DNA of 27,053 nucleotides, taken from positions 1 through 27,053 of IMG/VR virus record IMGVR_UViG_3300020418_000039. One strand, 5' to 3'. Position 1 is the stretch's first letter. Each line of letters begins with the position of its first letter. Below, in pieces: positions 5,485-11,640 of the stretch. This stretch comes from a virus. The notes beneath the pieces are model-generated. The model was not told the DNA's origin. It saw nothing but the letters and a program-made list of their open reading frames with translations, and ran no database searches. Both the position numbers and the translations under genes were made by a program.

Positions 5485-5526
5485 TACTGCTTATATACTG
5501 TTTTCTAAAAATGTATATAGGCAGTA
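5485..5526. repeat. 14-bp inverted repeat after integrase
   Basis: TACTGC-T-TATATAC pairs with GTATATA-G-GCAGTA across a 14-nt loop, with one T-G mismatch or wobble. It begins seven bases after the integrase stop. AACTACG next to it also recurs inverted as CGTAGTT near 5562, and TAGCTA occurs twice at 5529-5545. It may end integrase transcription, or be part of attP. There is no T-run on the plus strand. Confidence 0.5.
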
Positions 5527-5614: not shown

Positions 5615-5758
5615 ATGGGTATTATCGAATCTCCAATTTTTTGGATTGTAGTTGCAGCAGCTTCTGAAATTATTGCTTTAACTCCTTTGAAGTCAAACAG
5701 TGTTGTTCAGTTGATTCTTTCTGCAATCAATGCAATTAAGCCTGGAAAAAAGGCTTAA
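5615..5758 (+). CDS. Small hydrophobic membrane protein (zero-frame product of a frameshift gene)
   Basis: A 47-aa ORF with one transmembrane-like segment (SPIFWIVVAAASEIIAL) and an amphipathic second half ending KPGKKA. The S-P-I-F-W...A-S-E-x-I-A-L-T-P-L-K pattern is one I associate with small cyanophage membrane proteins; a holin-like role is possible but unproven. The gene ends with GGA AAA AAG GCT TAA, placing a perfect A_AAA_AAG heptamer two codons before the stop codon. A -1 shift there continues into the frame that stops at 6009, giving a 131-aa fusion. Confidence 0.7.
   Translation: MGIIESPIFWIVVAAASEIIALTPLKSNSVVQLILSAINAIKPGKKA
5746..5752 (+). promoter_or_regulatory. Candidate -1 ribosomal frameshift site A_AAA_AAG
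   Basis: The heptamer A AAA AAG is in the correct register relative to the 5615 frame (codons AAA 5747-5749 and AAG 5750-5752). It is the slippery sequence used in E. coli dnaX. Slipping by -1 makes the next codon GGC at 5752, entering an 85-codon open frame. Downstream, CGGTAAA-TGGA-TTTATCG (about 5775-5792) can form a 7-bp stem with one G-T pair, but it is ~23 nt away, farther than usual. No strong upstream Shine-Dalgarno stimulator is visible. Confidence 0.55.
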
Positions 5759-6009
5759 GCAACATACCGCATGACGGTAAATGGATTTATCGGTTTGACA
5801 CTAGAAGTCCGACCGAGAAACTTCGTCGTGCAATAAATGAACAAAAGTTTTATGCAACCTTGCCCAGTAAACTAGACAGGGCAGAACAGGAGTGGCTTGA
5901 TGCACAATTGGTTTCTGAGGATCCTTGGGAATCGAAAGAAACAGGCACATTTGGTGAAGATGGATGGACTATCTCATACCGCCATAAATCAGTCAAAAAA
6001 GATCAGTAG
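5752..6009 (+). CDS. Downstream frame of the putative frameshift gene, no start codon of its own
   Basis: An 85-codon frame (with stop 86) that looks coding: it reads HDGKWIYRFDTRSPTEKLRRA, then a helical LDRAEQEWLDAQLV and an acidic/aromatic end GEDGWTISYRHKS. There is no ATG or GTG; the only usable start would be TTG at 5857, which would discard the well-formed first third. The open frame begins only a few codons before the slippery heptamer and is exactly the frame reached by a -1 slip. I infer it is translated as a C-terminal extension of the 5615 membrane protein. It ends seven bases inside the SET-domain gene on the other strand. Confidence 0.5.
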   Translation, partial: GLSNIPHDGKWIYRFDTRSPTEKLRRAINEQKFYATLPSKLDRAEQEWLDAQLVSEDPWESKETGTFGEDGWTISYRHKSVKKDQ

Positions 6010-6404
6010 TCACCAAAGTCTTCTTCATCTTCTTCATATCCATAATTAATAAAAATTTCAGATCCAGCAGGAATATCTTCTGTTGCATAATGACGCATGA
6101 CTTCATTGACTGTATCAAGTTCATAGGCTGCATTATAATCAACTGAGTGATTGTATAATCCAGCAAATCCGAAACCTAATACTGATTCGTCAGTCTGGTT
6201 ATTATCAGCTGAATCGTATGTATAGCGGACAAGTATATCTGATTTTTTAGAAAGCTCTTTGTACGGAAACGTACAGTAAGGAGATTCTTGTAAGACATCA
6301 TGCATTTCAATATCGTCAGATGTAAACACACCCCAACGATGTGTATCAGATCTAGCAATATAAAGACCGGGATGACAATATAGCTCGTCAAGTTCTAAGT
6401 TCAT
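6003..6404 (-). CDS. SET-domain protein (putative protein lysine methyltransferase)
   Basis: A 133-aa protein with the order of SET motifs: RWGVFTSDDIEMHDVLQE at the N-terminal strand region, then LGFGFAGLYNHSVDYNAAYE where NHS matches the SET N-H-S/N-H-x core, then MRHYATEDIPAGSEIFINYGYEE matching the A-x-x-D-I-x-x-G-E-E-x-x-x-x-Y-G signature. The catalytic-site Tyr in NYGY is present. Short length is typical of minimal bacterial or viral SET proteins. It ends in an acidic tail. It is a lone minus-strand gene with an upstream TAGAATA element at 6425. A methyl acceptor cannot be named; host or phage protein modification is inference. Confidence 0.75.
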   Translation of the reverse strand: MNLELDELYCHPGLYIARSDTHRWGVFTSDDIEMHDVLQESPYCTFPYKELSKKSDILVRYTYDSADNNQTDESVLGFGFAGLYNHSVDYNAAYELDTVNEVMRHYATEDIPAGSEIFINYGYEEDEEDFGDY

Positions 6405-6491: not shown

Positions 6492-6728
6492 ATGATTGAG
6501 TCGATTATTAGTGCTACTATAGCTGTAGTTACTGGTGGTTTTGTGCTTACATCAAAAATAAGCTCTAAATTAGATAATTTAGACAAAAGAATTGATGGAG
6601 TTGAATTAAGTATGGCACAAAATTATGTGACAAAAAATGACTTTGAAAAAACGCTAGAGCGTGTAGAAGGTCATATGATTCGAATTGAAGAAAAATTAGA
6701 TGAACTTGTTATAAATCAGACTCGCTAA
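6492..6728 (+). CDS. Membrane-anchored coiled-coil protein (possible lysis protein)
   Basis: A 78-aa protein with an N-terminal transmembrane helix (ISATIAVVTGGFVLTS) and a long heptad-patterned coiled coil (SSKLDNLDKRIDGVEL, then KTLERVEGHMIRIEEKLD). The topology resembles XhlA/holin-type accessory proteins and small cyanophage proteins of the same layout. Its neighbours at 5615 and 7513 also have N-terminal membrane segments, and 7737 encodes an endolysin-like module, so a lysis role is a reasonable but unproven inference. Confidence 0.65.
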   Translation: MIESIISATIAVVTGGFVLTSKISSKLDNLDKRIDGVELSMAQNYVTKNDFEKTLERVEGHMIRIEEKLDELVINQTR

Positions 6729-9267: not shown

Positions 9268-10575
9268 TTAATGAGTATTTGCCCAATTTTCTCCATGATC
9301 TGCAGAAGCAGTGATTGGAACACGAAAGTTATAGTAACGTCCTGCTTCAGGTGCCGAATTTTCTAGCAACATTTTGACCCTATCAACTTCTTGGGGTACA
9401 ACCGACAGCTGCTGTTCATCGTGCACGTATGCACAACGGGTGTAGTCAATGTTGTAGGTAAGGCCTGCGCTATCAAGCATCTGCTGAGAGATCACCACCC
9501 AACGCTTGGATAGGATGGCTCCAGCTGATTGAAGTAGGTAGTTGAGGGCGGCGTGCTCAGCACGGCAGAATATAGGACGCCCATCAAGCCCCCTAAGACG
9601 ACCGCTTCCACGAACCTTATGTTTAACTGCATCAATAAGTGGCTCCAATCCAGGAATTGCATCAAGAAATTTGCGCCGTAGTTCGCTGCCTAGCTGCTTC
9701 TTCTGAGCATCGCTAAGCTCAGGATGCAAGCTATGGCCGAGCTTCTGGTCGCCGGCTCCATAGATGAACGCATAGCAAATTGTCTTGACTTCTTTACGAG
9801 TGCAACCAACACGGTCTGCGTTTTGCTGGTGAATGTCTCCATTGCACACAACGTCTGCAAACGCCCCCTCGTCATAGACAGATAGGTAATGCCCTAAGCA
9901 TCTGAGCTCTAAGCCTTCCAAGTCAGCCCCGACCATGACATGACCAGGATGTGGAACAAACAACTGACGTGCCCAAGGTGCGGACACCACTTGTCCAAGG
10001 TTGGGACCACGGTGCGCGTTACGCCCGGTTTGGGTCGCAAGAGTGCAGCTGTGGTGAATACACCCGTCATCTTCAATTGTGTTGAACCAGGAATTTGTCC
10101 CCTCAGACAGCTGGCCCAACCATTTCTGTAAGGTCAACAGACGGATGAACATTTCACACTCCTCATGCAGGAGCTTGTTGCCTTGAGATAAAGCAAGGTC
10201 ACGCATCTCAGAAAGGGTTGCCTCATCAACCTTGGGCTTACCTGTGTCTGTGACTTTGGTGAAGCGAGCTCCACGGAAGTTCTGCAATGCCCAGGCAATA
10301 TGTTGACGTGATGTTGGGTTGAAGTCCAACAGCTTCGTCAAAGGAGCACCGGCTATATATCCCTTAGTCTTGTTTGCCCGTTTAGGTGTATAAACTTTTC
10401 CTGGTACATAAATATAACGTGATTGAATTGATTGCTCAAGTTGGGTAACTTCTTCTTGGAGTTCACCACGCACTCTCTCTGCAGCAGCTACATCAAAACG
10501 GAAGCCACTGGCTTCTTGTTGTGACATGATTTCTGCCATCTGCATTTCAAGCAGTACACAATCATTTATAGTCAT
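9268..10575 (-). CDS. Family A DNA polymerase, polymerase domain only
   Basis: A 435-aa replicative polymerase lacking a fused exonuclease. Motif A is GADLEGLELR (~residue 217), motif B RKEVKTICYAFIYGAG (~258-273) and motif C YVHDEQQ (~382); the catalytic Asps and the motif B Arg and Lys are present. At the position equivalent to E. coli Phe762 it has Tyr, as in T7 polymerase. The start at ATG 10575 forms an ATGA overlap with the stop of the exonuclease gene, so the two halves of a T7-like polymerase are made as separate, coupled polypeptides. The longer frame to 10611 would lie inside the exonuclease. Confidence 0.9.
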   Translation of the reverse strand: MTINDCVLLEMQMAEIMSQQEASGFRFDVAAAERVRGELQEEVTQLEQSIQSRYIYVPGKVYTPKRANKTKGYIAGAPLTKLLDFNPTSRQHIAWALQNFRGARFTKVTDTGKPKVDEATLSEMRDLALSQGNKLLHEECEMFIRLLTLQKWLGQLSEGTNSWFNTIEDDGCIHHSCTLATQTGRNAHRGPNLGQVVSAPWARQLFVPHPGHVMVGADLEGLELRCLGHYLSVYDEGAFADVVCNGDIHQQNADRVGCTRKEVKTICYAFIYGAGDQKLGHSLHPELSDAQKKQLGSELRRKFLDAIPGLEPLIDAVKHKVRGSGRLRGLDGRPIFCRAEHAALNYLLQSAGAILSKRWVVISQQMLDSAGLTYNIDYTRCAYVHDEQQLSVVPQEVDRVKMLLENSAPEAGRYYNFRVPITASADHGENWANTH

Positions 10576-11096
10576 GAGTAATCTTCCATACGACGTTTCA
10601 TTAGTGCCCAAAGCTTGAGCGTTACTTCAGTGTCTTGGATGCAGTAGTCAAGCATCTCAGGCGTATAAACAGACCAGTTGCCTTCGTGCTTGCCAAAGTC
10701 ACCTTTAAAGCACTTAAGGCGATAACCCCAGGCTTCAAGGCTATGTCGTCCGTACAGCCTTTGTGGCATTCCGTGTGGACGACGTTCGTAGTCTCTATCT
10801 GCAATATGTGGATAAAAAAGACGGCTTAGAACAAGAGTATCAATGGCTTGGCCCTGAGGCTTGAATTCAGGAAACTGCTCTTTGATTAATGGGATGTCAT
10901 AGCCAATGATGTTATGGCCAATCAATAAATCCGCCTGCTCTAGTTCTTTTACTCCTTGTATGATTGATTGCTCAGGACGATGGTCAAACACAGAAGTGCC
11001 GCCATCGTTACCGTTACGCATAACAATGCAGTGAATACGGGATCCTTGTCGTAATAAACCAGTGGATTCAAGGTCAAAAATAATTTGTTCATTCAT
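10572..11096 (-). CDS. 3'-5' exonuclease (DnaQ-like), split from the polymerase
   Basis: A 174-aa proofreading exonuclease. Exo I is FDLESTG (Asp and Glu metal ligands) at the N-terminus, Exo II is GHNIIGYDIPLI, and Exo III is YCIQDTEVTLKLW (Y-x-x-x-D). The order and length match the exonuclease domain of T7-type family A polymerases. ATG 11096 (MNEQIIFD) is chosen because it overlaps the upstream stop (GATGAATGA) and starts directly at the Exo I strand. The polymerase follows with a 4-nt overlap, so the two products probably assemble into one enzyme. Confidence 0.85.
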   Translation of the reverse strand: MNEQIIFDLESTGLLRQGSRIHCIVMRNGNDGGTSVFDHRPEQSIIQGVKELEQADLLIGHNIIGYDIPLIKEQFPEFKPQGQAIDTLVLSRLFYPHIADRDYERRPHGMPQRLYGRHSLEAWGYRLKCFKGDFGKHEGNWSVYTPEMLDYCIQDTEVTLKLWALMKRRMEDYS

Positions 11097-11640
11097 CGAA
11101 GGTGTCTTTTGCATTATCTGGATCATATTCATCTGGCGTGAACGGGTTCGCTTCTGGGAAGAGAACTGAATCAATGTTTCTGTCATTTGTATTTTGTGTA
11201 AATCTTGGGTCTTCATCTAGAAATATAGGTTCAATTGCTACTTGTAATTCTCTTGCTAAACGACCGGCACGTCTAAATTCTTCTCGATAATATGGCTCCC
11301 ACTCATGAGCAAGTATTACAATTTTACGAATACCCATCATATGTGCTTGAAAAATAGATGTAGAAAATGGATATCTAGTGCTGTATATAACTGCGCCAAT
11401 AGCTGGAGTACCAGCTTTAGCAGCAGCAGCTACTGCATATGAAATGCAATCAACTTCAACTTTACTGTCAGTTAATAAACTTCTACCATTTCCAATAATT
11501 TCTCGGTCACGTACAATAATACATCCTCCAGGAGATTTTGGATGTGTTGAAGCTTGTGCAATAGTTTGTGCAACATTTATAAAATATTTCTCTTTATTTT
11601 TAATAAAAGTTGGGTCACCTTTAGGACTGGGCATATCCAC
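11089..11640 (-). CDS. dCMP deaminase-like protein with lost zinc site
   Basis: A 183-aa protein with the deaminase fold pattern: helix FINVAQTIAQAS, strand GGCIIVRDREIIGNG, helix YAVAAAAKAGTPAIG, strand AVIYSTRYPF, and GIRKIVIL. Where active enzymes have His-Ala-Glu it has Asp64-Cys65-Ile66, and where they have Pro-Cys-x-x-Cys it has Pro91-Phe92-Ser-Thr-Ser95. All three zinc ligands and the proton-shuttling Glu are missing, so ordinary deamination is not expected. The C-terminal ~50 residues are acidic and low-complexity. It is coupled to the exonuclease (8-bp overlap), so a structural or regulatory role at the replisome is conceivable. Confidence 0.65.
   Translation of the reverse strand: MDMPSPKGDPTFIKNKEKYFINVAQTIAQASTHPKSPGGCIIVRDREIIGNGRSLLTDSKVEVDCISYAVAAAAKAGTPAIGAVIYSTRYPFSTSIFQAHMMGIRKIVILAHEWEPYYREEFRRAGRLARELQVAIEPIFLDEDPRFTQNTNDRNIDSVLFPEANPFTPDEYDPDNAKDTFDE

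Follow-up and report, generated by a model that had tools for sequence, protein, structure and literature searches.

A probable programmed -1 ribosomal frameshift extends a small membrane peptide in a family of cyanophage genes

The window, i.e. the whole stretch of 27,053 nucleotides analysed here (positions 1 to 27,053 of IMG/VR virus record IMGVR_UViG_3300020418_000039), contains on its plus strand a short open reading frame at positions 5615-5758. It encodes a 47-aa hydrophobic peptide, MGIIESPIFWIVVAAASEIIALTPLKSNSVVQLILSAINAIKPGKKA, which belongs to the PHROG 22542 / 15106 families; the entries of these families record neither a function nor a frameshift. The hydropathy of the peptide reaches a maximum of 1.84 over 19 residues, and its structural model, built on an alignment from which all rows from phage records were left out, consists of two helices (residues 7-22 and 28-41) with a loop between them (pLDDT 78). 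The residues W10, A15, S17, E18, N28 and S29 are invariant, Glu18 being located within a helix.

The 3' end of this frame reads GGA AAA AAG GCT TAA. The slippery heptamer A_AAA_AAG occupies positions 5746-5752 of the same strand, in the 0 frame and one codon 5' of the stop TAA (5756-5758). A stop of the -1 frame sits 5 codons 5' of the 0-frame stop, and from the GGC codon at 5752 the -1 frame remains open for 85 codons up to the TAG at 6007-6009. From the base composition, the probability of 84 open codons arising by chance is about 0.003. The first-pass annotation of this DNA had proposed that a heptamer in the correct register joins the peptide to a downstream frame devoid of ATG or GTG, yielding a 131-aa product. 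The heptamer is present as described, the fused translation comprises 131 aa, and the first ATG, GTG or TTG of the downstream frame is a TTG 35 codons in.

The extension encoded at 5752-6009, hereafter the tail, is modelled with helices at residues 6-13 and 19-52 and disorder beyond them (pLDDT 70), and it terminates in the conserved motif FGEDGWTIS. The model has no fold match in the PDB, and neither the tail nor the peptide matches Pfam. Among the relatives, the C-terminal motif is either FGEDGWSIS or LGGxMxIxAPW, and hhalign (98.7%) shows tails of both types to be homologous. On the minus strand, a convergent gene at 6003-6404 overlaps the end of the tail and encodes a SET-domain protein of 133 aa (Pfam SET, E 1.9e-10); a gene equal in size and place is found in L024 and L033. 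An imperfect 20-nt inverted repeat at 5485-5526 lies in the gap that separates the integrase and peptide genes; it may represent a terminator or belong to an attachment site. Further along the window, the family A DNA polymerase (9268-11216, minus strand) is encoded in two pieces, one ORF resembling an exonuclease and another for the polymerase. An ATGA overlap near 10574 offers a start to the latter, which looks like ordinary start-stop coupling.

The peptide is 50-63% identical to proteins of the cyanophages S-CBS1, S-CBS3, KBS-S-2A, 7B11-B, WH11-B, S-B28 and S-EIV1. All seven have a slippery heptamer, G_GGA_AAG in the case of S-EIV1, from which the stop is 0-1 codon away, and a -1 frame that is open for 52-89 codons. 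The uncultured phage S37-C6 has neither the heptamer nor a long -1 frame, and a DNA-level search of phage records with the window region gave no match. A profile search of viral contigs matched more than 500 relatives, 80 of which were kept together with 10 from genome contigs; one unrelated match (L112) was left out. When these were grouped into 41 clusters at 70% identity, with a long frame defined as at least 40 codons, the heptamer and the long -1 frame occurred together in 35 clusters, neither occurred in 4, the heptamer only in one (L102) and the frame only in one (L111). The expectation that relatives would share the heptamer is thus borne out. The corresponding numbers among 24 clusters obtained at a looser threshold are 20, 3, 0 and 1. 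Joint absence of heptamer and open frame is seen in L011, L072, L105 and L106. As for codon usage, of the Lys-Lys pairs that long frames contain elsewhere in these loci, only 3.2% are A_AAA_AAG, whereas 32 of 35 clusters with a terminal Lys-Lys have it at the gene end.

To avoid choosing relatives on the peptide, the tail was also used as a query. Two such searches gave 132 loci, some of whose contigs are common to the peptide-side set. An upstream peptide is present at 125 of them: 121 combine the -1 relation with the heptamer and a frame that stays open past the stop, three show the -1 relation but lack an exact heptamer, and the remaining one (L119) carries a one-base indel in the peptide relative to its near twin L120. 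Fused homologues, which the first-pass annotation had suggested looking for, were not found, i.e. none of these 125 loci has the peptide and tail in one frame. This absence implies that selection maintains not only the tail but also the 0-frame stop, an argument for the use of both a short and a long product.

Codon-level comparison across 19 disjoint pairs gives a pN/pS of 0.23 and zero stops in the -1 frame, whereas reading this DNA in the 0 and +1 frames yields 1.17 and 1.76, respectively, and many stops. The downstream frame, for which a check of selection had been proposed, is therefore under purifying selection. These data bear on another explanation, an error of sequencing or assembly or the decay of a fusion gene, to which the fact that a single base would fuse both frames might seem to lend itself. 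The arrangement is, however, common to isolates and more than 100 independent contigs, no in-frame fusion exists among the loci described above, and the tail is constrained. The site is also identical in the near-identical contigs L001 and L002, which come from other metagenomes, so it is not a sequencing error in the window. The probability of such an artefact is close to nil, and at the level of sequence comparison we regard it as refuted.

When both searches were pooled and duplicates removed, 145 unique sites were obtained, and 140 of them carry a heptamer: AAAAAAG at 135, GGGAAAG at 4 and AAAAAAC at 1. The stop follows the heptamer directly at 30 of these 140 sites and after one codon at 110, never further away, and all three stop codons occur. 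The five remaining sites keep the frame without a counted heptamer, L132 having A_AAA_AAA and L231, L245, L159 and L161 having near-matches. The four near-matches are degraded heptamers with an intact frame, a combination of the kind that had been named as evidence against frameshifting. In the tail-first loci L159 and L161, the peptide ends CCA AAG AAA TAA and the tail is still open in the -1 frame.

The heptamer also contains a run of A residues, on which RNA polymerase could slip and add a base to give two mRNAs and hence two products. Runs of seven to nine A do occur in a few relatives, in keeping with such slippage. Against it, 125 of the 135 AAAAAAG sites have exactly six A, which is short for efficient slippage, the final G is maintained in the phase of the heptamer, and one clade uses GGGAAAG with three A only. 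Both the six-A runs and the GGGAAAG clade argue against this explanation, and we consider transcriptional slippage highly unlikely.

The tail could alternatively be a separate gene, translated by termination and re-initiation at the 0-frame stop from a weak or unusual start codon. There are indeed tail homologues that form an ORF of their own: gp48 of S-CBS2, starting at the GTG in TAGTGA, the Cyanobium locus L111, starting at the GTG in AAGTGA, and those of S-CRES1/3. Besides, an ATG lies no more than one or two codons away from the stop in L048, L053 and L056. In most loci, however, the conservation of the tail (NIPxDGxW) begins directly 3' of the slip site, ahead of any usable start, and 61 of 91 loci have no ATG, GTG or TTG between the -1 stop and codon +10, nor is any other codon conserved at one place. 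The missing start codons argue against re-initiation in those 61 loci. Re-initiation moreover needs no exact heptamer, and yet nearly all unique sites possess one. We therefore judge it very unlikely as a general explanation. In L048, L053 and L056, where the heptamer and the ATG coexist, the tail could be produced in fused as well as in separate form.

Relatives whose tail has its own start had likewise been anticipated as evidence against frameshifting. They do exist, but the heptamer is absent from S-CBS2, S-CRES1/3 and L111, where the tail is a separate gene. That the tail beside a heptamer-less peptide has its own start suggests that the heptamer and an independent start are interchangeable ways to express peptide and tail. 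Possible tail relatives with their own start (hhalign 62.6%) are found in S-CBS2, S-CRES1/3, S-CBP2, P-HM2 and S-CREM1, the last of which has its own hydrophobic N-terminus in one frame.

The kept heptamer, the purifying selection and the missing starts, taken together, make error, chance, transcriptional slippage and re-initiation poor explanations. It is very probable, judging from these sequence patterns, that programmed -1 ribosomal frameshifting joins the peptide and tail frames. Most ribosomes would then terminate at 5756-5758 and release the 47-aa helical-hairpin membrane peptide, while a fraction would slip one base back on A_AAA_AAG, with the two lysyl-tRNAs re-pairing on AAA AAA. The shifted ribosomes would read 85 more codons to produce a 131-aa protein that combines the membrane part with a soluble helical domain and the conserved C-terminal motif. 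From the hydrophobicity and the two-helix model, the gene is predicted to yield two membrane products. The details of the slippage and the relative amounts of the products are presumed here from the analogous cases of E. coli dnaX and other frameshifts in phages.

A_AAA_AAG is among the most shift-prone sequences in E. coli, whose single tRNA-Lys serves for both lysine codons (PMC5009743). In the draft Cyanobium genome that holds L111, taken as a host-like example, the sole tRNA-Lys among the 36 tRNAs found has the anticodon UUU, the very condition that makes A_AAA_AAG highly shift-prone in E. coli (PMC5009743).

The first-pass annotation regarded a weak or distant stimulatory structure as its main doubt, and justifiably so: RNAalifold detected no conserved, covarying downstream structure in the window's subfamily. 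No Shine-Dalgarno-like stimulator was found at the unique sites either. On average, the downstream RNA is more stable than shuffled sequence and control regions (mean z of -2.05 over 37 relatives versus -1.03 and -0.47 for the controls), although not uniformly. The S-CBS3 group has a stable hairpin with little covariation and a single compensatory pair. The most constant feature is the stop directly 3' of the slip site, and we infer that it may act by pausing.

In S-CBS1 and S-CBS3, the gene order is a fibre gene, a coiled-coil membrane protein, the peptide with its tail, and a lysozyme. Longer homologues adjoin lysozyme or glycoside hydrolase genes in P60, S-SRP01, DSL-LC07, S-CBP1 and S-CBP3. 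According to Pfam, the 87 neighbour proteins of representative loci include 5 C39-like peptidases, 4 phage lysozymes, 3 M15 peptidases and 2 glucosaminidases, and 11 of the 87 belong to the coiled-coil family PHROG 12220. HNH endonucleases are also frequent (12 among the 87), so that the neighbourhood is not one of lysis alone. In the window, the neighbours of the peptide gene are the integrase and SET-domain genes and not a lysozyme; a 78-aa PHROG 12220 protein with an N-terminal hydrophobic helix and a coiled coil is encoded at 6492-6728 on the plus strand. Proteins of similar layout lie directly 5' of the peptide gene in S-CBS1, S-CBS3, KBS-S-2A and S-B28-like contigs.

The gene order also bears on whether this is a tail-assembly chaperone frameshift of the lambda G/GT type. 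A tailed phage in which a -1 frameshift yields one short and one extended protein fits that description, and one homologue weakly matches a tape-measure PHROG (E 0.016). On the other hand, the short product of 47 aa is a hydrophobic hairpin, and its gene in isolates follows fibre genes and adjoins lysozyme rather than preceding an annotated tape-measure gene. A position just upstream of a tape-measure gene, by which G/GT genes would be recognised, is seen neither in the isolates, with their fibre, coiled-coil and lysozyme genes, nor in the window, with its integrase. We consider the G/GT assignment extremely unlikely.

The lysis cassettes of the cultured relatives make a holin-like role, with a frameshift-extended partner, the best functional guess. 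Judged from gene position only, a lysis role is conceivable, at somewhat less than even chances. The peptide would then be holin-like, with the long form tuning it or recruiting another component, e.g. as an antiholin or as a link to another lysis protein; in the antiholin version we place less confidence than in the lysis role itself.

The predicted frameshift resembles that of E. coli dnaX in the heptamer A_AAA_AAG, its register and the single tRNA-Lys(UUU) of the host-like genome. The dnaX shift shortens its product and makes use of both a hairpin and a Shine-Dalgarno-like element, whereas the shift in the window gene would extend the product, has an immediate stop and has no conserved stimulator that we could find. 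In lambda G/GT and T7/T3 10A/10B, too, translation from a single start yields a short phage protein and a form extended at its C-terminus. The proteins concerned are tail chaperones or capsid proteins, however, while the present gene encodes a tiny membrane peptide with no detected homology to them and, unlike them, lies in or near lysis genes. The lambda holin gene gives two membrane forms, S105 and S107, from one small gene by means of two start codons, so that their N-termini differ. The present gene would also give two membrane forms that could oppose each other, but the predicted frameshift adds a C-terminal domain and the holin activity is putative. The MS2 lysis gene offers another parallel, as its out-of-frame decoding is linked to lysis function.

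To our knowledge, tailed phages have few known conserved frameshifts other than those that make tail chaperones or extend capsid or tail proteins. The elements seen here, i.e. programmed -1 frameshifting, the heptamer and phage proteins with an extended form, are all known already. In the portion of the open-access literature available to us, no description of a frameshift in a holin or cyanophage lysis gene was found, and as far as can be told from it, the use for a small membrane peptide of this cyanophage family is new. In every record inspected, the frameshift is unannotated, and the tail is either missed or given an internal start.

This widespread gene family includes phages of abundant cyanobacteria. 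We speculate, with more doubt than confidence, that in many cyanophages, and in aquatic phages related to them, one gene supplies both a holin and a frameshift-extended antiholin or holin-linked effector, and that the two proteins, in a ratio set by A_AAA_AAG, time lysis. Lysis control of this kind would be without an earlier description. If the lysis role is true, the gene would represent a new means of fixing how much of one lysis protein is made relative to another, and it would provide a compact system for studying frameshifting in cyanobacteria.
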